Below are positions 18,525-49,750 of a stretch of DNA of 64,000 nucleotides, in pieces (the first letter of the stretch is position 1; each line of letters opens with the position of its first letter). Where the stretch lies: assembly GCF_003987395.1 (NCBI RefSeq), contig NZ_PIPT01000004.1:62001-126000 (forward strand). The letters run 5' to 3'. The notes under the pieces were generated by a model, which was not told the origin of the DNA, did no database searches, and was given only the letters and a program-made list of their open reading frames with translations. Position numbers and translations under genes: made by a program. The DNA comes from Pseudidiomarina aquimaris. Lineage in GTDB: Bacteria; Pseudomonadota; Gammaproteobacteria; Enterobacterales; Alteromonadaceae.

Positions 18525-21401
18525 ATGAAACGATTATTTTTGAGTAGTGCCATAAGCTTGGCGCTGTTAAGCGGCTGTAGCACACAGACCGTTATGCCAG
18601 AACCGACGACGCAGGTTGAGCAGGCACAAGCCAAAGTCGTGAAATCACCGAACGACGACCGTGAGTACCGCGTCATCACCTTACCAAACCAGATCGAAAT
18701 CATGCTGGTTTCTGACCCAAGTACTGAAAAGTCAGCTGCATCGTTGAGTGTTGGCGTGGGATTATTACAAGATCCAATGACTCAACAAGGCATGGCCCAC
18801 TACCTTGAGCACATGCTCTTCCTTGGTACTGAAGATTATCCGGATACCAAGGGCTATTCGGAATTTATGACCGCCAACGGTGGTTCGCAGAATGCCTACA
18901 CGTGGCTCGACATTACCAACTACATGTTTAGTGTGAACAACGACGCAGTCGACGAGGCTTTGGATCGTTTCTCAGACTTTTTTAAAGCCCCTATGCTTTA
19001 CCCGGAATACACCGATAAAGAGAAAAATGCCGTCAATGCAGAATGGTCAATGCGCCGTGAAATGGACTTTTTTGGCCAATTTAAACTGGCACGAAACTTA
19101 TTGGGCGATCACCCAGCGAATCGCTTTTTGATCGGTAACCTTGAGTCGTTAGGTGACAAAGAAGGTAGTCAATTACATGCCGAAACCGTCGCCTTTTATG
19201 AGCGCTACTATTCAGCGAATATTATGAAAGTCGCGCTGTTAGGAAATCAGTCGCTGGATGAACTCGAAGCTTTGGCACGTGAACACTTTAGCGAAATTGA
19301 AAACCAAGCGATTGCCGAGCCTGAAGTGACGGCGAGCATCGACTTTACAGAAGTTGGCGGTAAGCGTATTCACTATGTTCCAAACCAAGACGTTAAGCAG
19401 TTACGGTTGGAATTTATTATCGACGACAACAGCGATGACTTTGCCGTTAAACCTAATCAATTCATCTCTTATTTGATCGGCTCTGAAATGCCTGGAACAC
19501 CGGCATTTTTGCTTAAGAATAGTGGCATGATTTCAAGCCTCAACGCTTCTGCCAGCCCGACTTACTACGGTAATTACGGCACGCTCTCTATTGACGTCAA
19601 CCTTACCGATGCAGGCATGCAAAATCGCGAAATGATAACTGCCATGCTATTGCAATATATCGAGCTGATTAAAGCCGAAGGCGTTGATGCGAAATACTAC
19701 GACGAGATCAAAACGAGTCTTGATAACCAATTCCGCTTCTTAGAAAAGTCGGATGAGTTTGGCTATGTTTCGAATCTTGCTGAAGCTATGCAGAATGTAC
19801 CAGCAAGTATGGCGATTGCAGCGCCTTACCATTACGAGCGCTTCGACGCCGCTGCTATCCGTAGCGTACTCGACCAACTCACACCAGAACGTTTGCGCGT
19901 TTGGTACGTGAGTAAGCAAGAGCCGCACGACAGTGAATTGCACTACTATGACGGTAAATACCAAGTGGTGGATATCAGTGCGGAAGAGCAAGCTAGCTGG
20001 CAACAAGCACTGAACATTCCGATGCAACTCCCGGCAGTGAATAATATGCTGCCAGAGAACTTTGAGCTAGTTGCGGATAGCCAACGCGATAAGCCAGAAG
20101 TTGTTGTCGAGCAAGACGGTATTCGCGCATGGCATTATCCGAGTCAGGATTTTGCTGACCAACCACGCGGCTGGCTCGATATTCATATGAATTACCCTGC
20201 TGCGTTGTCATCTGCGAAAGCCGATGTGCTGTTGTCGCTTTGGCGCGATCTCTATACCTTGCAGCAAAGTGCGCTCGCTACTGAAGCGGGCATCGCCGGC
20301 ATGAATATGAGCCTTTCAGCAGGTACCGGTTTGACCATGCGCGTCGGCGGCTTTACCGATAAGCAGTCCATGTTATTGGAAAAAGCACTCGCGGGGCTGG
20401 TCGTCAATGTCGACGAGCAAGGTTTCGCCCAAGCGGTTGATCGTTATGTTCGTGCGCTGCAAAACCAAGGGAAGCAGTTCCCGTTTTACCAAGCGTTTGG
20501 CGCCTATAACAAACTGATTCGCGAAGGTAGTTTTAACACTGAACAGCTTATCAAAACGGCACAGGAATTAACGCCGGCTGATCTGACTAGTTTCATGAGC
20601 GAGTTTTTACAAGCGAACCACACACGCATTTTCGCCTTTGGTAACTACAATCAAGCAGCACTGGAAAACGTCGTCAGTACCGTTGCCGATGCGTTACCAG
20701 AGGAGCGTGATAACTTTGCCTATCGCCGCGCAGCATTCTGGCGTCCCCAAGTAGGTGAAACACTGGTGTGGCAGCAAGATATTGATGTTGCCGATGTTGG
20801 CCTTATCGACGTTAAGGTGAATCCAACCCCAGGTTACGCAACCTTTGCGGCGGCAACTGTTCTCAAAGATCACTTCAGTAATGTGGCCTTTGACCGCCTG
20901 CGTACGGAAGAGCAACTTGCTTATGCCGTTGGCGGCACTGCGACGCGACTGGATGATTACACTGGTTTCGCCATGTACATTCAAACCCCAGTTAAAGACG
21001 CAGCAGCCATGCAAGCCCGTTTCGATAAGTTCCGCGACGAGTATGCTGCCGTTCTTGCTGAATTAACGGAAGAAGAGTTCGCGCAACTGAAGGCAAGTAC
21101 ACTGGTAACCCTGAAAGAGCCACCGAAGAATATGTCAGAAGAAGCGCAGCCGCTAATCAGCGATTGGTATCGTGAAGAGTTCGACTTTGACAGCAAACAG
21201 CAACTGATTGACGCTGTGGAACAGGTCACTCTGGCTGACGTTCAAGCTTTCTATCAGGAAACGATGATGAACTCTGAGGCTGCACGGATTAACGTGCAAA
21301 TGCGTGGTACGAAGTTTGTCGAACAGCCATTTGCCAATTTCGAGCAGCAAACTCAGGTTGAGAACTTAGCTGACTTCCACAAGGACATGGAAAAGCAGTA
21401 A
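18525..21401 (+). CDS. Pitrilysin/insulinase-like M16 metallopeptidase lipoprotein
   Basis: 958-residue M16A peptidase resembling protease III (PtrA). The inverted zinc motif HYLEH (His92, Glu95, His96) is in GMAHYLEHMLFLGTEDYP, and the third ligand is in NAEWSMRREM. Further catalytic-domain hallmarks are NAYTWLDITNY and, in the C-terminal half, FDRLRTEEQLAYAVGG. The N-terminus MKRLFLSSAISLALLSGC is a lipoprotein signal (Cys18). Unlike the soluble periplasmic E. coli enzyme, it should therefore be membrane-anchored. It is not in the rec operon, where ptrA lies in E. coli. It probably degrades mid-sized peptides in the periplasm. Confidence 0.93.
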   Translation: MKRLFLSSAISLALLSGCSTQTVMPEPTTQVEQAQAKVVKSPNDDREYRVITLPNQIEIMLVSDPSTEKSAASLSVGVGLLQDPMTQQGMAHYLEHMLFLGTEDYPDTKGYSEFMTANGGSQNAYTWLDITNYMFSVNNDAVDEALDRFSDFFKAPMLYPEYTDKEKNAVNAEWSMRREMDFFGQFKLARNLLGDHPANRFLIGNLESLGDKEGSQLHAETVAFYERYYSANIMKVALLGNQSLDELEALAREHFSEIENQAIAEPEVTASIDFTEVGGKRIHYVPNQDVKQLRLEFIIDDNSDDFAVKPNQFISYLIGSEMPGTPAFLLKNSGMISSLNASASPTYYGNYGTLSIDVNLTDAGMQNREMITAMLLQYIELIKAEGVDAKYYDEIKTSLDNQFRFLEKSDEFGYVSNLAEAMQNVPASMAIAAPYHYERFDAAAIRSVLDQLTPERLRVWYVSKQEPHDSELHYYDGKYQVVDISAEEQASWQQALNIPMQLPAVNNMLPENFELVADSQRDKPEVVVEQDGIRAWHYPSQDFADQPRGWLDIHMNYPAALSSAKADVLLSLWRDLYTLQQSALATEAGIAGMNMSLSAGTGLTMRVGGFTDKQSMLLEKALAGLVVNVDEQGFAQAVDRYVRALQNQGKQFPFYQAFGAYNKLIREGSFNTEQLIKTAQELTPADLTSFMSEFLQANHTRIFAFGNYNQAALENVVSTVADALPEERDNFAYRRAAFWRPQVGETLVWQQDIDVADVGLIDVKVNPTPGYATFAAATVLKDHFSNVAFDRLRTEEQLAYAVGGTATRLDDYTGFAMYIQTPVKDAAAMQARFDKFRDEYAAVLAELTEEEFAQLKASTLVTLKEPPKNMSEEAQPLISDWYREEFDFDSKQQLIDAVEQVTLADVQAFYQETMMNSEAARINVQMRGTKFVEQPFANFEQQTQVENLADFHKDMEKQ

Positions 21402-21542
21402 CTAAGTTTTAGAACGACTGCGGGAGCAGCGTTGGGAGCAGTATTTCACCTGCTCCCAATCGCGCTCCCATTTTTTTCGCCAAGTAAAAGGACGTTGGCA
21501 TACCGGGCAAACTTTACTCGGCAAGTGCGCCTTCTTAATCAA
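21402..21542 (-). CDS. DUF2256 family zinc-ribbon micro-protein
   Basis: A 46-codon gene starting at TTG 21542, which overlaps the end of the DUF3300 gene. The upstream frame is closed by a stop at 21549-21551, so TTG is the only usual start. Translation contains [20 protein letters not shown] and then [17 protein letters not shown], with two Cys-x2-Cys/Cys-x3-Cys pairs matching the DUF2256 pattern (CxxCxRPFxWRKKWxxxWxxVKYCSxRC). A small zinc-binding protein is expected. DUF2256 genes are often found beside cryptochrome/photolyase-type genes; none is near here. It shares a transcript with DUF3300 and converges on the M16 gene with no gap. Confidence 0.85.
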
Positions 21543-22944
21543 TTTCCCTTACATCTCCTCGTTGTGGACTTGGCCGCTTAACCGCAGGCTTAGGCCTTTC
21601 AACACGCTCAGGCTTGCGCACCACCGGCTTAGGTTGTTGCGGCTTCGACTCGAAGCGCGGTTGCTGACGAATAACCCGCTGCTCTGGACGCGGTTCGACG
21701 CGCGGCTGCTGACGGATAACACGCTGCTCCGGACGCGGCTCTATACGCGGTGGCTGACGCACCACAGGCCGATCTGGCTGCGGTTCAACTCGTGGCTGCC
21801 GTACAATCGGCTGTTCCGGCTTCGCAGGTTTCGCCGGTTGCGGACCAAACCGCGGTTCACGGCGTAGTTCAGGCTGCTCAGCACGCGCTTCTAACCGCGG
21901 CTGTGCGGGTCGACGCATACGTGGCTCTGCCTCAGCTTCGAATAACCGACGACGCAACTCTACTTGTGGTGGACGTTGTTCACGCACAGGCTTACGCACA
22001 ATACGACCCGGCTCGTCCGCGCGATCAAATTTTGGCGGATTTTGTACTAGGTCACGATGACGGTAGTCGACGTTACGACGATGACGCGGATCATGGCGCC
22101 AGCGGTCACCATCACCAGGGCGCGGTCGATAATAATCACGGCGGTCACGACGATCACGACGGTCGCGATCGTGATAATGATGGTGATGAATCACGACATA
22201 ACGGTTGCGCCAATAAAAGTCGCTAAAGAAATACCAACTTGGCACGTTGTACGAGAGTGTCCAGTGCACGCCTCGGCCAAAACTTACCGAAACGCCAAAA
22301 CCATCCCAATACACCGGAGGCCGACGATGCCACCATGAACCATACACATAACGGCTATCGTAAACCGGTACATAGACATATTCACGACGCACCGTTTCAA
22401 TACGGATCACCTCTGGCTCACGCTGCACTACTACGCGCTCGTCAGTACGCAAATTACCGGCCGCATAAGCACGGTCACGCAGCACTTGAATGCTCGCTAA
22501 GACATCTTCTTGTTGTGCTAAAAATGCTTCGCCGACGGCTTGGGTCCACTCCAGATCTTCACTCATACGTTTCAGCACGTCAGGCGTTGCGACCAGAGCT
22601 TTGACGCTTGGGTCCCAATCTTGCGCATCAGCTTCATCTAAACGGCGCTCGGCCGACCAATGCTGGTGGCGTTCGACCCAGCGCTCAGCTTGGATAACCT
22701 CCAGCGGATAGGTCGCCGCAATCAGGATATGTGACAACAAACTATCAGGATAAAGCGCGATCGGAGCGAGCATGCGGTCCAGATCTGCACGTTCATAGAA
22801 ACCATCCACAGCGTAGGCCGTGTAGTTCTCCGTCGAGTTTGCGTAGGCTTGGGGTACCGTAGTACAACCCACGGAAGCTGCCAAAGCCAAGGACACGACA
22901 CTTAACTTCAACAACGGTAGTTTGGCTAATTTTGCTTGTCTCAT
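21535..22944 (-). CDS. DUF3300 domain protein with basic Pro/Arg/Gln-rich tail
   Basis: 469-residue exported protein. The signal region [27 protein letters not shown] has an imperfect lipobox (Cys27), so it is either a lipoprotein or is cleaved near QAYA. The DUF3300 domain spans about residues 55-240: [25 protein letters not shown] is a strong match, and [24 protein letters not shown] follows. A His/Asp/Arg-rich stretch ([14 protein letters not shown]) and then a disordered tail of 15-residue repeats ([15 protein letters not shown] type) complete it. The function is unknown; the acidic/basic tail may bind polyanions or the cell wall (inference). A short hairpin (GATGGT/ACCATC, 22965-22979) lies in the leader. 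Confidence 0.85.
21655..21834. repeat. 45-bp tandem coding repeat in the DUF3300 gene tail
   Basis: Four successive 45-bp units begin near 21655, 21700, 21745 and 21790. The first two are nearly identical and the last two have decayed. They encode the 15-residue Pro/Arg/Gln repeats, so frame is preserved. Slippage-driven length variation between strains is plausible. Confidence 0.75.
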
Positions 22945-35182: not shown

Positions 35183-35269
35183 GTGATCCTCTCTTATTTC
35201 TGCCATAATAACTGACTCAATTTTTACCATTAAATTTGCCAAAATCGTATGCGCCAGGAGAATGCCTCT

Positions 35270-36952
35270 ATGTCGAAGAGTCCGCTGTACATTCCCTATG
35301 CTGGGCCAAACCTACTGGAAACACCATTGCTCAATAAAGGTAGTGCGTTTACCCGTGAAGAGCGAGCGATGTTTAATCTCACCGGTTTGTTACCACCGCG
35401 CTACGAAACCATCGAAGAGCAGGTGAAGCGCTGCTATATGCAGTATTCAAGTTTCGATACAGCACTTAATAAGCACATTTATTTGCGCGCGATCCAGGAC
35501 AACAATGAAACGCTTTTCTACAGATTACTACAAGATAATCTCGAAGAAATGATGCCGATCATTTACACGCCGACTGTTGGCGATGCCTGTGAGCAATTTT
35601 CTGATATTTATCGCAGTTCACGCGGACTCTTTATTTCCTACGAAGAACGCGATCAACTCGATGATATTCTGCGCAACGCTACCAAGCGCAAAGTTAAAGT
35701 CATCGTGGTGACCGACGGCGAGCGCATTCTTGGACTTGGCGACCAAGGCATTGGTGGCATGGGTATTCCCATTGGTAAGCTAAGTCTCTATACCGCCTGT
35801 GGCGGTATCAGTCCTGCCTATACCTTACCCGTGTGTCTCGACGTCGGCACCAATAACGAAAAGCTCTTGAACGACCCGATGTACATGGGGGCGCGTCATA
35901 AGCGCATCGACCAAGAGAGCTACGATGAGTTTATCGAAAAGTTCATGCATGCGGTTCGCCGTCGCTGGCCGGAAGCCATGATTCAATTCGAGGATTTTGC
36001 CCAACCGAACGCCATGCCGATTTTACAGCGCTACCGTGACGACTTCTGCTGTTTCAACGACGATATTCAAGGTACCGCAGCGGTCACCGTGGGAACTCTG
36101 CTCGCCGCTTGTAAAGTCAAAGGTGTAGCGCTAAAAGATCAACGCGTAGCTTTTGTGGGCGCAGGCTCAGCGGGCTGTGGAATTGCCGAGCAAGTCATCG
36201 CACAAATGGTCGCCGAGGGACTCAGTGACGAAGAGGCGCGGGCGCAGATTTATATGGTCGATCGGTTTGGCTTGCTGACCGAGGGTATGGAAGGTTTACG
36301 CGACTTCCAGCAAGCATTAGTTCAGCCGCAAAAGCATCTCGAAGACTGGCAGCATAGTGGCGATTACCCGTCTCTACTCGATGTCATGCATTGTGGTAAG
36401 CCTACCATTTTGATTGGTGTCTCTGGGCAACCCGGATTGTTTACCGAGCAAGTTATCCGGGCGATGCACCAGTACACACAGCAGCCTATTATTTTTCCAC
36501 TTTCGAATCCGTCACGACAAATCGAGGCACACCCAGCTCACGTTATCGAATGGACCAACGGCGAAGCTATTGTTGCTACCGGTAGCCCTTATGATCCTAT
36601 CAAGTTTAATGGTGGCATTTATCCTATTGCCCAATGCAATAATAGTTATATTTTCCCAGGCATTGGACTCGGTGTGTTGGCGGTAAAAGCTCAGGTTATT
36701 AGCGATGAAATGCTAATGGCGGCAAGTAATACACTCGCTGATGCCTCGCCGCGAGCTAATGGCGAAGGCGAAACTTTGCTACCGCCGCTTACTGAGATCG
36801 CTGAGTTAAGTAAACGCATCGCCTTTGCGGTCGCGAAAGTAGCACAAGCTCAGGGTCATGCACTTGAAATTAGTGACGAAAAACTTATGGAGCGTATTGA
36901 GGGGCACTTCTGGTCTCCCGAATACCGCCACTATAAGCGCGTCAGTATTTAA
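35270..36952 (+). CDS. maeA: NAD-dependent malic enzyme
   Basis: Oxidatively decarboxylates malate to pyruvate and CO2. I prefer the ATG at 35270 ([19 protein letters not shown], 560 residues, close to E. coli SfcA), with AGGAG upstream; ATG 35249 has no ribosome site. The malic-enzyme signatures are present: [13 protein letters not shown] near residue 105, [18 protein letters not shown] near 160, [13 protein letters not shown] near 245, and a Rossmann [13 protein letters not shown] near 300. ISDEKL and the C-terminal RHYKRVSI-type end are complete. It supplies pyruvate when growing on amino acids and organic acids (inference). Confidence 0.96.
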
Positions 36953-36969
36953 TCGTTCTTGACTGGCAA

Positions 36970-37024
36970 CATCGCTCGTTTCCTTGTATGTTCAATAACA
37001 TAGCAATGAGGAAATCGAGCGATG
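36970..37024 (+). promoter_or_regulatory. Long leader hairpin covering the Shine-Dalgarno and start codon of the 37022 gene
   Basis: CATCGCTCG (36970-36978) pairs with CGAGCGATG (37016-37024, containing the ATG). TTTCCT (36979-36984) pairs with AGGAAA (37009-37014), leaving one bulged T. An inner TATGTT (36987-36992) pairs with AACATA (36997-37002) around a CAAT loop. The Shine-Dalgarno AGGA and the ATG are both in the stem. No T-run follows. It could be a translation switch, an RNA thermometer, or a maeA terminator. Confidence 0.6.
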
Positions 37025-38017
37025 CGGCAATCCACAGCCTTTTTGCAACTCAGTTGGTTGGTGCTCTCACTGAGCGTTGCGATGCCGTGCGCTTTGGCAC
37101 TAGAACAACAAGGGCCTCCCACCGACGAACCACCTGCTAAAACCAGCGAAAAAGAACTGATCGATGACGTTCGCAGTGGCTTGCATAGCTCTGTCAGCAC
37201 CACAGCGGCGTGGCTCGACTCTTTCTTCACTGACGCTATCGATCGCAGTGCATATGACGATGTTTATGGTAGCCTGACTTTGGCTCCACAATGGGACGAA
37301 TATGATGGTTTTGAGGTGGACTCAAGCTTTCGCGCACGGGTGGTGCTGCCGCACGCGGAGCGCAAATTCTCAGCTGTCATTGGTCGCGGCGATTTTGATG
37401 ACTTTATTAATGATCAGCAGACCACTCGCCCCACTGTCATTCGCCGCGAAGAAGCTGACGACGAATGGATGGTCGGTTTAGGCTTCGACCCCGTTGTGGA
37501 AGATGACCATAGTATTTCTTTTGGTGCAGGATTCCGCGGTGGTATTGATCTTGACCCCTATGTGCGAGCCCGCTACCGCTTCGAGCAAATACTCAATGAA
37601 CGCAGTGAGCTGCACATGCAAAGCGTTGGGTTTTGGCGCGATAGCGATGGTTTTGGTATTGCCCAAACCATCGAGCACGACTATGCCCTGAGCGAACATT
37701 GGTTCAATAAATTTTGGCTGCGCGCCACGTTTGCTGAGCGCACTGAAGGTGTGCGCTGGCATGCTTCGGAAAAAGTCTATTACATCTACCAACCGGAGCG
37801 CGCATTAGGCGCCGAAGTTTGGTGGTATGGTGAAACCGAACGTGCCGTGCCATTGCAAGATTACGGCTTAAAAGCCCTGCACCGCTCGCGTTTTCTCCGT
37901 GATTGGCTCTACTTAGAAAGCTGGGTCGGCGTCCATTGGCCCCGTGAGCAGCTCGACGAGTCTCGTAAACCGCGCTGGCTTGTAGGTATTGAGCTTGAGC
38001 TTCACTTCGGCAAATAA
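37022..38017 (+). CDS. Putative outer-membrane beta-barrel protein, family not recognised
   Basis: 331-residue exported protein. The signal peptide MRQSTAFLQLSWLVLSLSVAMPCALA ends near residue 26, and an acidic linker follows (PPTDEPPAKTSEKELIDDV). From about residue 75 the sequence alternates polar and aromatic residues in strands such as YGSLTLAPQWDEY, SFRARVVLP, ISFGAGFRGG, VRARYRFEQI, FWLRATFAERT and LVGIELELHFGK, a beta-barrel style. I do not recognise the family. A lone gene between maeA and a convergent NRAMP gene, it begins inside a long hairpin that hides its start codon, so translational control is likely. Confidence 0.7.
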   Translation: MRQSTAFLQLSWLVLSLSVAMPCALALEQQGPPTDEPPAKTSEKELIDDVRSGLHSSVSTTAAWLDSFFTDAIDRSAYDDVYGSLTLAPQWDEYDGFEVDSSFRARVVLPHAERKFSAVIGRGDFDDFINDQQTTRPTVIRREEADDEWMVGLGFDPVVEDDHSISFGAGFRGGIDLDPYVRARYRFEQILNERSELHMQSVGFWRDSDGFGIAQTIEHDYALSEHWFNKFWLRATFAERTEGVRWHASEKVYYIYQPERALGAEVWWYGETERAVPLQDYGLKALHRSRFLRDWLYLESWVGVHWPREQLDESRKPRWLVGIELELHFGK

Positions 38018-38024
38018 GGCTGCA

Positions 38025-39233
38025 CTACCAAAGCTGTAATGCAGCGCCAATGCTGCGCACACCAAGCCCCACCGCCACCAACACGACAAGCATTGCTAAC
38101 AAGTTTTGCCGCCAGCTATTGCGATAGCGCCCCATCATGCTGTGATTGCATGCCCACACGAGAAACAGCGCCATAATTGGCAACAGTAAGCCATTAGCTA
38201 CTTGTGCGAACCAAATCACCGTCACTGGCTTAATTTGCAGTGAGGCTATGATCACACCGATGGCAATGATACCCATCCAAGTGAGACGAAATGGTAACCC
38301 TTTTAAGTCGCCACCACGGCCAAGGATGCCACTGAGCGCATAAGCCGACGCAAGTGGTGCGGTAATCGACGACGAGAGTCCTGCGGCGAACAAACCCAAG
38401 GCCATTAACCAGGTCGCCCAGTCGCCAGCAAGCGGCCGTAATGACTCACTTAAATCAGCCGCACCCTCAATCGTTAACGCCTTACCAAAAAATGCCGCAG
38501 CGGCGGTCGAAACAATCGCCACTGAAATAAGGCCACCTAACGGAATCGAAACCCATAAATCGCTCCGTGCTTCACTCAACTGTTCTGGCTGCTGCCACTT
38601 CTTGGCAGAGCTCGCCGCATGCAAAAACAGGTTATAGGGCACTACCGTGGTACCGATCAAGGCAATGACCGTGAGCACTGAACCCGTGGGTAAAGATGGT
38701 ATTAGTAAGCCCTCAAAAAATGCCCCCCAGTCCGGCTGCACCAGCAAAAAGGTCGCGACAAAGGTCATGCTCATCAGTAACACCAAAGCTATCAGCACGC
38801 GTTCTAACAAGACATAGCTACCCCGCCACAACAAAGCAGCGGCCAAAATTCCCAAGACCAACGGCAACCATGCAGCCTGCTCCCCCAATACGCCAGCGAT
38901 GCCCATGCTGGCTCCTGTAAGGTTACCGCCTTGATAAACACTGTTACCAATAATGACCGCACCGATGATGAGTGCAACAGCGCCCCAGCGCAGGAGAGGG
39001 TTTTGCACTTGTCGCCGTATCGCTTCGCCTAGCCCTTGTTGCGTAACAACCCCTAAACGCGCCGCCATTTCTTGCAAGATAATGGTCGCAAGCACCGAAA
39101 ACACCAGAGCCCAAAGTAGCGCATAGCCGAAATTTGCCCCAGCAAGACTGGCTGTTACGACCGTCCCTGGACCTATGAATGCCGCAGCTACAAGGGTCGC
39201 GGGCCCTAAACTTATACCTTTGCCTTTACGCAT
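38025..39233 (-). CDS. NRAMP-superfamily transporter lacking the canonical DPGN and MPH motifs
   Basis: 402-residue membrane protein with about 11 hydrophobic helices, recognisable as NRAMP from LGPATLVAAAFIGPGTVVTAS near its start and the overall layout. Canonical manganese/iron transporters have DPGN in helix 1 and a Met-Pro-His set in helix 6. Here helix 1 reads GPGT and helix 6 reads VVPYNLFLHAASS. The metal-coordinating Asp, Asn and Met are therefore missing, as in NRAMP-related subfamilies that carry other substrates. I would not call it MntH; substrate unknown. It converges on the preceding outer-membrane-like gene with 7 bp between the stops. Confidence 0.82.
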   Translation of the reverse strand: MRKGKGISLGPATLVAAAFIGPGTVVTASLAGANFGYALLWALVFSVLATIILQEMAARLGVVTQQGLGEAIRRQVQNPLLRWGAVALIIGAVIIGNSVYQGGNLTGASMGIAGVLGEQAAWLPLVLGILAAALLWRGSYVLLERVLIALVLLMSMTFVATFLLVQPDWGAFFEGLLIPSLPTGSVLTVIALIGTTVVPYNLFLHAASSAKKWQQPEQLSEARSDLWVSIPLGGLISVAIVSTAAAAFFGKALTIEGAADLSESLRPLAGDWATWLMALGLFAAGLSSSITAPLASAYALSGILGRGGDLKGLPFRLTWMGIIAIGVIIASLQIKPVTVIWFAQVANGLLLPIMALFLVWACNHSMMGRYRNSWRQNLLAMLVVLVAVGLGVRSIGAALQLW

Positions 39234-46084: not shown

Positions 46085-46816
46085 ATGACGCAGGTTACGC
46101 GTTCAAGCCGGTGGCGCGTTTGGCACCGTTGGCTGTCTTTGATATTTGGCGTACAGATGGTCTTATGGGCCATCAGTGGCGCTTACATGGTCTTTTTTGA
46201 CCTCGACTACATTCACGGTGATCACCTGGTACAAGAGATCACGCAGCCCGTCGCGCAAGAGGTTGATGTTCGACCTATCGACGATGTCTTGGCAGCCTAT
46301 CCACATACCCAGAATATCACCTTTAAAACACTTTGGTATCAAGGCCAACAGCAAGCGGTTTACAAACTTAGCGGGCACAACGGCGAGCAATTGCTCAACG
46401 CGAGCACGTTAATGCCGATTGCACTTTCGGCTGAGGATATTGAAGCGCTTGCCATACGTTATTACGCCTTAGACGACCCTAAGGTCGAGTCAGTCGTGTA
46501 TATGACAGAGAATCCGCCGACTGAATTAAACCCTGCGCTTTTGCCCATCTGGCAGGTTAACTTTGACGATTTTGGCAGCACCAGCCTTTACCTTTCTGAA
46601 AATACTGGCGAAATGCTGGTCAAACGTCATACCTTTTGGCGCGGATTCGATATCTTTTGGATGATTCATATCATGGATTATGAAGATCGCGTGGATATTG
46701 AGTCATGGTGGTTGCAAGCGTTTATTATCGGCACCTTTATTCTGATGATCACCGGCGCCGTTCTGCTCGTGTACACCATCAGCTTCAAGCGCAAATCATC
46801 TGGAGGTGCGGCATGA
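46085..46816 (+). CDS. PepSY-type membrane protein
   Basis: 243-residue protein with an N-terminal helix (SLIFGVQMVLWAISGAYMVFF, residues 19-39), a periplasmic PepSY-like domain (about 45-190, WQVNFDDFGSTSLYLSENTGEML) and a C-terminal helix (AFIIGTFILMITGAVLLVYTI). HRWLS near residue 16 and WMIHIMDY near 197 provide membrane-proximal histidines typical of PepSY-TM proteins, possibly haem or metal related. GAGGT precedes the ATG. The stop overlaps the next start as ATGA, so it is translationally coupled to the PepSY-reductase fusion. Confidence 0.82.
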   Translation: MTQVTRSSRWRVWHRWLSLIFGVQMVLWAISGAYMVFFDLDYIHGDHLVQEITQPVAQEVDVRPIDDVLAAYPHTQNITFKTLWYQGQQQAVYKLSGHNGEQLLNASTLMPIALSAEDIEALAIRYYALDDPKVESVVYMTENPPTELNPALLPIWQVNFDDFGSTSLYLSENTGEMLVKRHTFWRGFDIFWMIHIMDYEDRVDIESWWLQAFIIGTFILMITGAVLLVYTISFKRKSSGGAA

Positions 46817-48453
46817 TGCGGTTTATGCAATGGCTGCACCGTTGGGTCAGCCTGATTCTTATCATTCAGGTTCTATTATGGATTGTCAGTGCCGCGGCAT
46901 TCAGCTTGATGGGGCATCATGCGATGTCGGGTCATCAGTATATGCGTCACGTCCATCCTGAGATGCTCAGTGAACAAGCGCCACAATGGTCACTGGACGA
47001 GGTACGTCGTCGCTTCCCTGCCGCCGACAGTATTGTACTGAGTAACGTGCTGGGGTATCCACAGTATCAAGTCAAAGAGGGTACCGAGTGGAGCTATGTG
47101 GACGGTCATACTGGCGCTGCGTGGCAAACCGATGCGCAATTGGCGCAAGCAGTTGCTGCGGCAAGCTATGAAGGGCCAGGTGTAATTGTTGACGTAGAGG
47201 CCATTGAGCGCTCAGACGAAGTTATTAAATGGCAGGGGCCAGGTTATCGCATTGATTTTGCCGATGATCTTAATACCCGAGTTTATGTTGATGCTGCTTC
47301 AGGTCAGGTGGTCGATCATCGCAACACCCAATGGGTGATCGCAGACTGGGCCTTTAAGTTGCACTTTATGGACTACAGTGGCGAACGTAGCTTTAATCAT
47401 TTGTTGATTTGGAGTGCAGGGCTGTTTGCGCTTTGGTTCTCTTTGTCGGGTCTTATTTTGCTAGTGCGCAACGTCGCTCAAGGTGACTTCAACCCACGGC
47501 GTAAGCCTACTTGGCTTGAGCAGTTGCAGCGTGACGAAAAACCCATCGCCAGTAGTTGTGGTGGTGGTGGTACTTGCGGATTATGCAAAGTGACCTTCGA
47601 CAATGCACAACAACCGGCACCAACGGCTGCAGAACGCGTGATGCTCAGTGAGGCTGAACTCGCTTCAGGCCTACGCTTAGCTTGCCAACACAAAGTACAG
47701 GCAAGCGATAAGGTTGAACTAGCGAACGGAGATGTCGCTAGCCATACCTTGAATCTGCAGCGTAAACGCGATTTAACACCGAGTATCGCTGAGCTGACCT
47801 TTTCCAGCTCCCAGCCACTCACGTATCGCGCCGGGCAGTTCTTGCAATTTAAGATACCGCACGAAAATGCTGTACTTGAGCGCCATTATTCATTCGCCAC
47901 AGCGCCAACTGATGACGGCTTGCTGACCTTTACCGTGCGCCATATGCCAGCGCCACGAAGCGGCGTACCGGCAGGTATTGGTTCAGGCTTCCTGTGTCGC
48001 TTAAAAGCGGGCGATCAGGTTGAAGCCATTGGCCCATTTGGCGATTTCGTTCTAACCGAGGCACAAGAACGACAGCAAGTATTCATTGGCGGCGGTGCGG
48101 GTATTGCGCCGTTGCGCGCCTTGCTGCAAGCTGAAAAGCAAGCTGAGTCACCGCGTCCATGTAAATTCTTTTACGGTGCACGAAACGGTTCAGAACTCTG
48201 CTATGTAGACGAGTTCGCTGCTGATGAGCAGGTTGATTATGTACCAGTTCTATCTGAGTCAGTTTCAGAGGACTGGAACGGTCGCACCGGATTTGTGCAT
48301 GCGGTCGCTGCAGAGTGGCTACGTAGCCAAGATTTATCGAACCTAGATGTGTATGTTTGTGGGCCGCCTGCGATGCTGAAGGCGACCATGGATATGTTGG
48401 CAGAACTAGGTGTACCTCGAAACCAAATCAAGTTCGATGATTTTGGTATCTAA
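46813..48453 (+). CDS. PepSY membrane domain fused to a NqrF-like ferredoxin and FAD/NAD(P)H reductase
   Basis: 546-residue fusion protein. GGAGGT precedes the ATG at 46813. The PepSY part (about 1-225) has two helices (LHRWVSLILIIQVLLWIVSA and SAGLFALWFSLSGLILLV). Next is a [2Fe-2S] domain with Cys249, Cys255 and Cys258 in SSCGGGGTCGLCKVTF and Cys291 in LACQ, the NqrF arrangement. An FAD domain follows (LERHYSFATAP near 355) and a pyridine-nucleotide domain (GGGAGIAPLRALLQ, then VYVCGPPAMLKATM). Electrons should flow from NAD(P)H through FAD and the cluster to the membrane PepSY region, and then to a periplasmic acceptor such as a ferric chelate brought in by the receptor (inference). Confidence 0.88.
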   Translation: MMRFMQWLHRWVSLILIIQVLLWIVSAAAFSLMGHHAMSGHQYMRHVHPEMLSEQAPQWSLDEVRRRFPAADSIVLSNVLGYPQYQVKEGTEWSYVDGHTGAAWQTDAQLAQAVAAASYEGPGVIVDVEAIERSDEVIKWQGPGYRIDFADDLNTRVYVDAASGQVVDHRNTQWVIADWAFKLHFMDYSGERSFNHLLIWSAGLFALWFSLSGLILLVRNVAQGDFNPRRKPTWLEQLQRDEKPIASSCGGGGTCGLCKVTFDNAQQPAPTAAERVMLSEAELASGLRLACQHKVQASDKVELANGDVASHTLNLQRKRDLTPSIAELTFSSSQPLTYRAGQFLQFKIPHENAVLERHYSFATAPTDDGLLTFTVRHMPAPRSGVPAGIGSGFLCRLKAGDQVEAIGPFGDFVLTEAQERQQVFIGGGAGIAPLRALLQAEKQAESPRPCKFFYGARNGSELCYVDEFAADEQVDYVPVLSESVSEDWNGRTGFVHAVAAEWLRSQDLSNLDVYVCGPPAMLKATMDMLAELGVPRNQIKFDDFGI

Positions 48454-48464
48454 GCAAGTACGGG

Positions 48465-48496
48465 CTCGAGCGCTTGAATTATTTCAAGCGCTTGAG
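48465..48496. terminator. Bidirectional hairpin at the convergent ends of the reductase and SQR genes
   Basis: The 14-base arms at 48465-48478 (CTCGAGCGCTTGAA) and 48483-48496 (TTCAAGCGCTTGAG) pair with one mismatch around a TTAT loop. The loop holds the SQR stop. Outer GGG/CCC bases can extend the stem. The hairpin overlaps the last codons of the SQR-like gene and lies 11 bp after the reductase stop. The T-tract is weak. Confidence 0.6.
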
Positions 48497-49750
48497 GCCC
48501 ATCATTCTTAAGCCAACCTTCTCATAGACGGGTTCGCTAGTACCGCGGCGGACTTTATACATAAAGTACTTTTCAAACGCCACCTTCGCCCAATGAACCC
48601 AACGTCCTGAACCTGTCCAATTGCGGTTGCGCGGTGGATTTTGCGGCACAGCCAAAAACGCTGCACCGGTATTACCCATATCAGCCAAGCAAAGAGCGCT
48701 CAGCGTCGGCTCAACCCAAGCTTCACTGCCTTCAAGGCTCGCATGAATATTCTTCACAATGGCCGAGGTCATCGACTCTATCATCAAGCCGGTTTTGGGG
48801 GCGCCCACTGGCACTGGGGTTTCTTCAATTGGCGCAATAGCAACACAGACACCAGCCGCATAAATTTCCGGATAGGCTTGTGCCCGTTGAAAGGTATTGG
48901 TTTTAACAAAGCCCTTGGGATTGCAAAGATCCGCAACCTCCGCCACCGCGGGTGAGCCTTTAAATGCTGGTAAAAACATCGCTAATTTAAAGGGTGCTTG
49001 CTCTTGTGCCTTCTCAACGCCATCGTCGTTGTACACGGTGAAATGAGCTTGCTCTTGGGTGAACTCCGTTACCTTGGCGTTGCATACCCATTTGATACCA
49101 TGTTCACGAAACTTGTGTTCCATGAGGCTTTTGGAGTCGCCGACGCCACCCAAGCCCATATGGCCAAGGTAAGGCTCAGGTGTGACAAAAGTAATCGGGA
49201 CTTTGTCGCGGATTTTGCGCTTGCGAAGTTCGTATTCAAGCGACAGAACATACTCATAGGCTGGACCAAAGCAGCTCGCACCTGGTAAAGCGCCGACTAA
49301 CACCGGACCAGGGTTTTCCAACAATTGATTAAAAGCGGAGTGTGCATGCACCGCGTGATCAACCGTACAAATCGACTCGGTAAAGCCGGTTTCAGGACCC
49401 GCACCAGGAATGTTTTCAAAGGCCAGTTTAGGCCCTGTACAGAGCACTAAGAAGTCATAGCTTTGCTCTGAGGCATCACCCAACTTGAGCTTGCGCTGCT
49501 CCGCATCGACATGCGCAACCCCAGAGCCATTAAACTCAATTGCGTGTTTCTCAAATATAGAGGCAATCGGCATCACTACTTGTTCGCGCGTTCGGGAGCC
49601 AAGCGCAACCCAGGGATTCGATGGAACAAAGTTAAACTCGTCGCCCTCGCCAACCACCATTATTTCGTGCTGTTTCGATAAAACTTCACGCAATTCAAAA
49701 GCAACAGATACACCGCCTAAACCAGCGCCCACTACAATAACCTTAGCCAT
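48479..49750 (-). CDS. Sulfide:quinone oxidoreductase-like FAD flavoprotein
   Basis: 423-residue FAD/NAD(P)-fold oxidoreductase. The N-terminal FAD site is VIVVGAGLGGVSVAFEL. Further marks are LVLCTGPKLAFENIPG near residue 105, GALPGASCFGPAYEYVLSLE near 155, IYAAGVCVAIAPIEETPVPVGAPKTG near 300 and ALCLADMGNTGAAFLAVPQNP near 360. These match the SQR family; Cys in the SCFG and ALC segments are candidates for the redox-active pair. It lacks an obvious membrane helix, and SQRs bind the membrane peripherally. AAGGAGG precedes the ATG. Sulfide detoxification into the quinone pool is likely, but FCSD-like relatives cannot be excluded. It is convergent with the PepSY-reductase operon. Confidence 0.82.
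   Translation of the reverse strand: MAKVIVVGAGLGGVSVAFELREVLSKQHEIMVVGEGDEFNFVPSNPWVALGSRTREQVVMPIASIFEKHAIEFNGSGVAHVDAEQRKLKLGDASEQSYDFLVLCTGPKLAFENIPGAGPETGFTESICTVDHAVHAHSAFNQLLENPGPVLVGALPGASCFGPAYEYVLSLEYELRKRKIRDKVPITFVTPEPYLGHMGLGGVGDSKSLMEHKFREHGIKWVCNAKVTEFTQEQAHFTVYNDDGVEKAQEQAPFKLAMFLPAFKGSPAVAEVADLCNPKGFVKTNTFQRAQAYPEIYAAGVCVAIAPIEETPVPVGAPKTGLMIESMTSAIVKNIHASLEGSEAWVEPTLSALCLADMGNTGAAFLAVPQNPPRNRNWTGSGRWVHWAKVAFEKYFMYKVRRGTSEPVYEKVGLRMMGLKRLK

Follow-up and report, generated by a model that had tools for sequence, protein, structure and literature searches.

A hairpin over the ribosome site, overlapping a promoter-like motif, as a candidate read-through shield between the malic enzyme gene and an outer-membrane-like gene in Pseudidiomarina

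Bacterial genes are packed closely, and transcription can continue from one gene into its neighbour. In the transposase leaders of IS10 and IS50, read-through transcripts fold back on themselves, and the ribosome site is thereby hidden from transcription that enters from outside. In yeast, the long isoform of genes with long undecoded transcript isoforms (LUTIs) is transcribed and remains untranslated, while the short one is translated; this depends on upstream open reading frames and on an inner promoter that is actively repressed. In phage T4, two reviews describe gene e (lysozyme) and I-TevI as carrying a hairpin on transcripts initiated upstream, with a late promoter inside it; lysozyme synthesis from transcripts folded in this way is reported to be 100-fold lower, and related phages are stated to keep a late promoter in the 5' strand (PMC3014915, PMC2988022). 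One of the reviews adds soc and 49 to the genes whose start is sequestered (PMC3014915).

We investigated a hairpin at the start of an outer-membrane-like gene located downstream of a malic enzyme gene, in a 64-kb stretch of DNA (the window, meaning the whole stretch that was analysed) whose closest named relatives are Pseudidiomarina. As in gene e and I-TevI, the Shine-Dalgarno sequence and/or AUG is predicted to lie in a helix on long transcripts, the leader in the window included. A promoter-like motif overlaps the DNA of the 5' strand, and short transcripts, should they start from it, would lack that strand as those of the T4 genes do. The hairpin thus appears, by analogy, to work like the T4 gene e class. 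Unlike the T4 genes, the Pseudidiomarina pair, a metabolic and an outer-membrane gene, resides on a bacterial chromosome and involves no phage late sigma factor, and it is described here by sequence computation, whereas an experimental figure is given for T4 lysozyme. The proposed fold-back of a read-through transcript that hides the ribosome site is shared with IS10 and IS50, which are mobile and have changing neighbours, whereas the neighbour here is one and fixed. An untranslated long isoform and a translated short one, as we propose here, would also resemble the yeast LUTIs, which differ in being eukaryotic, in acting via upstream open reading frames and in actively repressing the inner promoter. 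A literature search on such precedents and on promoters or hairpins of Pseudidiomarina and Idiomarina, made with narrow terms that leave absence from print unproven, returned nothing similar beyond the T4 reviews; passages of PMC8450116 and PMC4265352 have no bearing on read-through shielding.

The malic enzyme gene and the downstream gene are separated by a 69-nt gap on the same strand, and the malic enzyme stop codon ends 17 nt 5' of the hairpin (Table 1). The start codon of the downstream gene agrees with a signal-peptide-like N-terminus, as judged by eye. Its product had been called outer-membrane-like and of unknown family in the initial annotation, and both descriptions held. The protein matched no Pfam or NCBIfam family, with just a few single weak matches among 30 members, and a sequence profile search of the PDB gave nothing credible (two matches, E about 0.5). 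The AlphaFold model (mean pLDDT 79.3, pTM 0.69) has 14 strands and a helix at the N-terminus, and the best PDB structure matches were porins and other outer-membrane barrels, with at most 12% identity and TM-scores below 0.5 on the query among the best 50 of 977. Since a barrel was predicted and the matched structures are outer-membrane proteins, the label of an outer-membrane beta-barrel-like protein is supported at the level of the model, and we refer to its gene as the barrel gene.

Table 1. Features of the malic enzyme–barrel gene region, in window coordinates
Feature	Position	Strand	Evidence and remarks
Malic enzyme gene	35249..36952	+	Pfam Malic_M E 4.8e-100, malic E 8e-79; presumed read-through source
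CTGGCA, -35-like element	36963..36968	+	CT(A/G)G at this exact distance from TATnnT in 26/26 genomes
Hairpin 5' arm	36970..36987	+	Fold and arm coevolution; inside promoter spacer
TATGTT, -10-like element at hairpin apex	36987..36992	+	TATnnT in 26/26, 18 nt after hexamer CTGGCN
Predicted transcription start region of the barrel gene's putative own promoter	36997..37001	+	Inferred from -10-like element
Hairpin 3' arm over Shine-Dalgarno and start codon	37006..37024	+	Fold
Shine-Dalgarno GAGGA	37008..37012	+	Sequence; at least 3 bases paired with 5' side in 23/25 tandem leaders
Outer-membrane beta-barrel-like gene, unnamed family, 331 aa	37022..38017	+	26/26 genus genomes; AlphaFold; PDB matches
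Nramp-family gene, convergent, 3' of barrel gene	38025..39233	-	Family match

We then computed the fold of the leader directly. The minimum free energy structure of 36960-37040 had an energy of -30.3 kcal/mol (z -4.67), and none of 200 shuffled sequences was as stable. The hairpin spanned exactly 36970-37024, as initially annotated, with the same outer stem of nine pairs that includes the ATG at 37022-37024 (36970-36978 with 37016-37024) and the inner stem that closes the loop (36988-36992 with 36997-37001). The annotated stem over the Shine-Dalgarno sequence was also present, with nine pairs instead of the six given there (36979-36987 with 37006-37014, U37015 being bulged). The energy by itself is not exceptional, as 80 of 21,310 windows of 73 nt (step 6, both strands) reached -30.3 kcal/mol or lower. 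The burial of the start, measured as the predicted cost of opening positions -15 to +6, amounted to 24.8 kcal/mol, the costliest among 49 ORF starts picked by a simple rule in the 64-kb window (runner-up 16.9, median 8.0 kcal/mol). The 81-nt stretch had a single match in its own genome.

We next compared the locus across the genus. The barrel gene was found in all 26 genomes searched, with 54-82% identity to the protein of the window, and lies directly 3' of the malic enzyme gene in 25 of them, the exception being genome G020. When the leaders of the relatives were folded from CTGGC to +15, 21 of the 25 tandem leaders gave a z of -2.88 or lower against shuffled sequences, and the weak folds were those of L013 (-0.88), L017 (-1.91), L021 (-1.2) and L024 (-0.09). 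Pairing with the 5' side involved at least three Shine-Dalgarno bases in 23 of the 25 leaders; of the AUG, it involved at least one base in 19 leaders, none in six and all three in seven. The conserved feature is thus the burial of the ribosome site, and the complete burial of the ATG in the window is one extreme of a range. In L024 (1366-1449), the inverted repeat, CATTCCTTG/CAAGGAATG, was observed 3' of the -10-like box, as would be seen after a duplication or relocation of the 5' arm; because of this downstream location, the short transcript of L024 would retain this hairpin.

Species differ in the sequence of the 18 nt that contain the 5' arm. Since a MAFFT alignment loses the stem register, owing to differing bulges and register, we adopted an alignment-free arm-swap test, in which each 5' arm was paired with its own 3' region and with those of other species. 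The 16 representatives used were chosen, without a tree, by at least four differences in the 18-nt arm, so that relatedness among them is lessened and still present. The mean pairing energy was -17.2 kcal/mol with the own 3' region and -10.9 kcal/mol with those of other species, and none of 100,000 permutations attained the native pairing sum. The result persisted when the Shine-Dalgarno complement was removed and the outer arm alone was tested (native -9.4 versus -5.3 kcal/mol; 0/100,000), whereas the controls reached the native sum in 54,856 (coding segment) and 27,673 (reversed arm) of 100,000 permutations. The inner TTTCCTTG alone gave a small native advantage (5,014/100,000). At the level of single species, the native partner was the best or tied in just 8 of 16 cases with the full arm and 9 of 16 with the outer arm; it ranked fifth or lower in L013, L017, L021, L024 and L026, and L013, L017 and L026 had no native advantage with either the full or the outer arm. 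Overall, pairing rather than sequence has been kept in the hairpin arms, and the covariation in relatives that the initial annotation had proposed as a check is indeed present in this form.

A promoter-like motif overlaps the hairpin. CT(A/G)G was located exactly 24 nt 5' of TATnnT in all 26 genomes, and the best-conserved letters of the leader are TTCCTTGTATGTTC together with CT(A/G)GC. When the leaders were aligned on TATnnT, its first three letters and the last one were invariant, and positions -18 to -9 were variable. Each box agrees with the sigma-70 consensus at four of six positions, and a consensus promoter scan did not list the pair; the motif looks like a promoter with its -10 box at the hairpin apex. 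A genome-wide search for the motif pair with an N16 spacer, allowing up to three mismatches, gave 15 matches versus 33 for the control. The barrel-gene locus had one mismatch and the other 14 matches three each, so that no second copy with fewer than three mismatches was found in the genome and there is thus no sign of a regulon. The 5' arm motif, searched likewise with up to three mismatches, gave 55 scattered matches versus 36 for the control.

Because the 5' arm extends only as far as the start of the -10-like box, transcripts from the gene's putative own promoter would lack that arm. For the 25 tandem leaders the mean calculated opening cost was 21.1 kcal/mol on long transcripts versus 5.7-6.2 kcal/mol when the transcript was taken to begin 4-11 nt beyond the box, and 20.0 versus 8.8 kcal/mol when more sequence was included on both sides. 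The initial annotation had taken transcription starting inside the hairpin to speak against translational control; such a start is just what the sequence predicts, and the hairpin would then act as a filter on read-through transcripts, its role not being abolished.

We consider it reasonably probable that the hairpin shields the barrel gene from read-through, blocking translation of transcripts that run on from the malic enzyme gene while those from the gene's own promoter stay readable. Polymerase continuing past the malic enzyme gene would yield a long transcript on which the hairpin forms in the leader and leaves the outer-membrane gene untranslated. The putative own promoter (CTGGC...TATGTT) would overlap the hairpin in such a way that its spacer is the 5' arm and its -10 box the apex, and the transcripts from it would begin a few bases past the -10 box, without the 5' arm and with an ordinary open ribosome site. 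We infer the promoter activity, the read-through and the ribosome block in the cell from the computed features described above. The genus-wide coevolved hairpins over a conserved promoter-like element suggest an RNA insulator within the promoter spacer; phage T4 is known to use this device, which here would stand between two chromosomal genes. A LUTI-like variant, in which strong transcription of the malic enzyme gene sends polymerases through the overlapping inner promoter and so lowers initiation there, while the long transcript is untranslatable, so that the barrel gene is actively turned off, is conceivable and on the unlikely side; if true, carbon metabolism and the cell envelope would be coupled with no need for a regulator. 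The signature itself, a start-hiding hairpin with its 5' arm between -35 and -10, is searchable and could be used wherever transcription starts have been mapped.

Genome G020 served as a control for the arrangement. Its barrel gene (L027) has a divergent neighbour, and the malic enzyme gene, at a distance of about 3 kb, has a convergent Nramp-like gene as its 3' neighbour. The L027 leader keeps the promoter-like motif, TTGTATGTT and CTAGC with the same spacing, and lacks a hairpin (z +0.78, with an opening cost of 3.2). In the protein tree, G020 is placed, without strong support, as a long-branch sister to the other 25 genomes (support 87/98 for the 25). Because the control is thus one genome on a long branch, the arrangement and the hairpin may each have changed once, and the difference probably represents one evolutionary change and not many.

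We further analysed homologue loci of two related genera, g35 and Idiomarina (g52), folding 32 of 35 loci; L126, L152 and L159, for which no start was set, and more distant homologues (about 21-32% identity) were left out. The opening costs were 2.9-12.7 versus 11.6-26.3 in the 25 tandem leaders, ranges that overlap slightly (L024 11.6, L127 12.7). The flanks examined upstream of these homologues revealed no malic enzyme. According to the ORF lists, six of them (L145, L146, L147, L150, L157 and L158) have a non-malic neighbour on the same strand and no such hairpin, so that tandem order alone brings no shield; the hairpin is associated with the malic enzyme as neighbour and not with tandem order generally. 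An element similar to the -35-like box, CT(A/G)GAC, was found 5' of the homologue in 13 of the 17 g35 loci, whereas a scan of 17 Idiomarina loci did not reveal it in any. In eight of the g35 loci (L148, L149, L152, L155, L156, L159, L161 and L162) it forms part of CT(A/G)GAC-N18-CAA(T/G)CT, which may be a separate class of promoter for this gene family; a sigma-E identity was considered for this motif and dropped, as the spacing does not fit.

The strongest rival remains a role at the 3' end of the malic enzyme gene, which could coexist with the shield. The hairpin would then be a terminator lacking a U-tract, a Rho-related pause or a structure that stabilises the 3' end, overlapping the barrel-gene start as a consequence of the short gap. 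Its beginning so soon after the malic enzyme stop codon fits such a role, as do another hairpin at a gene end, at about 48462-48500, that also lacks a clean T-run, and leaders L003 and L004, where an 8-nt window no more than 4 nt past the ATG contains five T. However, the other 23 of the 25 tandem leaders have at most four T in such 8-nt windows, with only one in the window itself; the initial annotation had likewise found no T-run after the hairpin, which both the sequence and the terminator scan bore out, the latter listing no terminator-like site in the 69-nt gap. Furthermore, the 3' end of the G020 malic enzyme gene carries no hairpin of this kind, and the extent of Shine-Dalgarno pairing within the stem in 23 of 25 leaders also argues against this role, which we regard as improbable. 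The initial preference for translational occlusion over termination is thus supported by the folds of the relatives, the opening costs and the arm coevolution.

Translational control of another type could operate if the long transcript were the expressed one and a small RNA, a protein or a helicase opened the hairpin on a signal, with TATGTTC near the loop being recognised. The conservation of the hairpin itself and of the leader letters named above would be expected from such a switch. The fixed 24-nt distance, however, is not explained by an RNA target, no Rfam covariance model matched 36700-37300 up to E 1, and the motif persists in L027 without the hairpin; a conditional switch is therefore quite improbable, and the small-RNA or protein target initially suggested fits less well, the conserved letters being promoter-like. 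An inverted repeat acting on the DNA level as an operator, or a chance fold, with no role for the RNA, would account for the overlap with the promoter-like motif, whereas the arms diverge among species with their complementarity kept, unlike a sequence-specific operator, and the shuffled sequences never folded as well, making this reading very improbable. The RNA thermometer also proposed initially would be consistent with the paired ribosome site and start codon. However, the predicted opening cost of the window's leader was 29.9 kcal/mol at 20 °C, 24.2 kcal/mol at 37 °C and still 22.6 kcal/mol at 42 °C, so that no melting is expected in the range of a mesophile and a thermometer is extremely improbable.

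Two further hairpins in the window lie between convergent ORFs. The long one at 48462-48500, located where the ORFs 46705-48453 (+) and 48479-49750 (-) converge and lacking a clean T-run, is possibly a bidirectional gene-end structure. The other, at 21420-21478 between the ORFs 18525-21401 (+) and 21535-22944 (-), is a strong hairpin with a run of seven T after it and has the appearance of an ordinary terminator.
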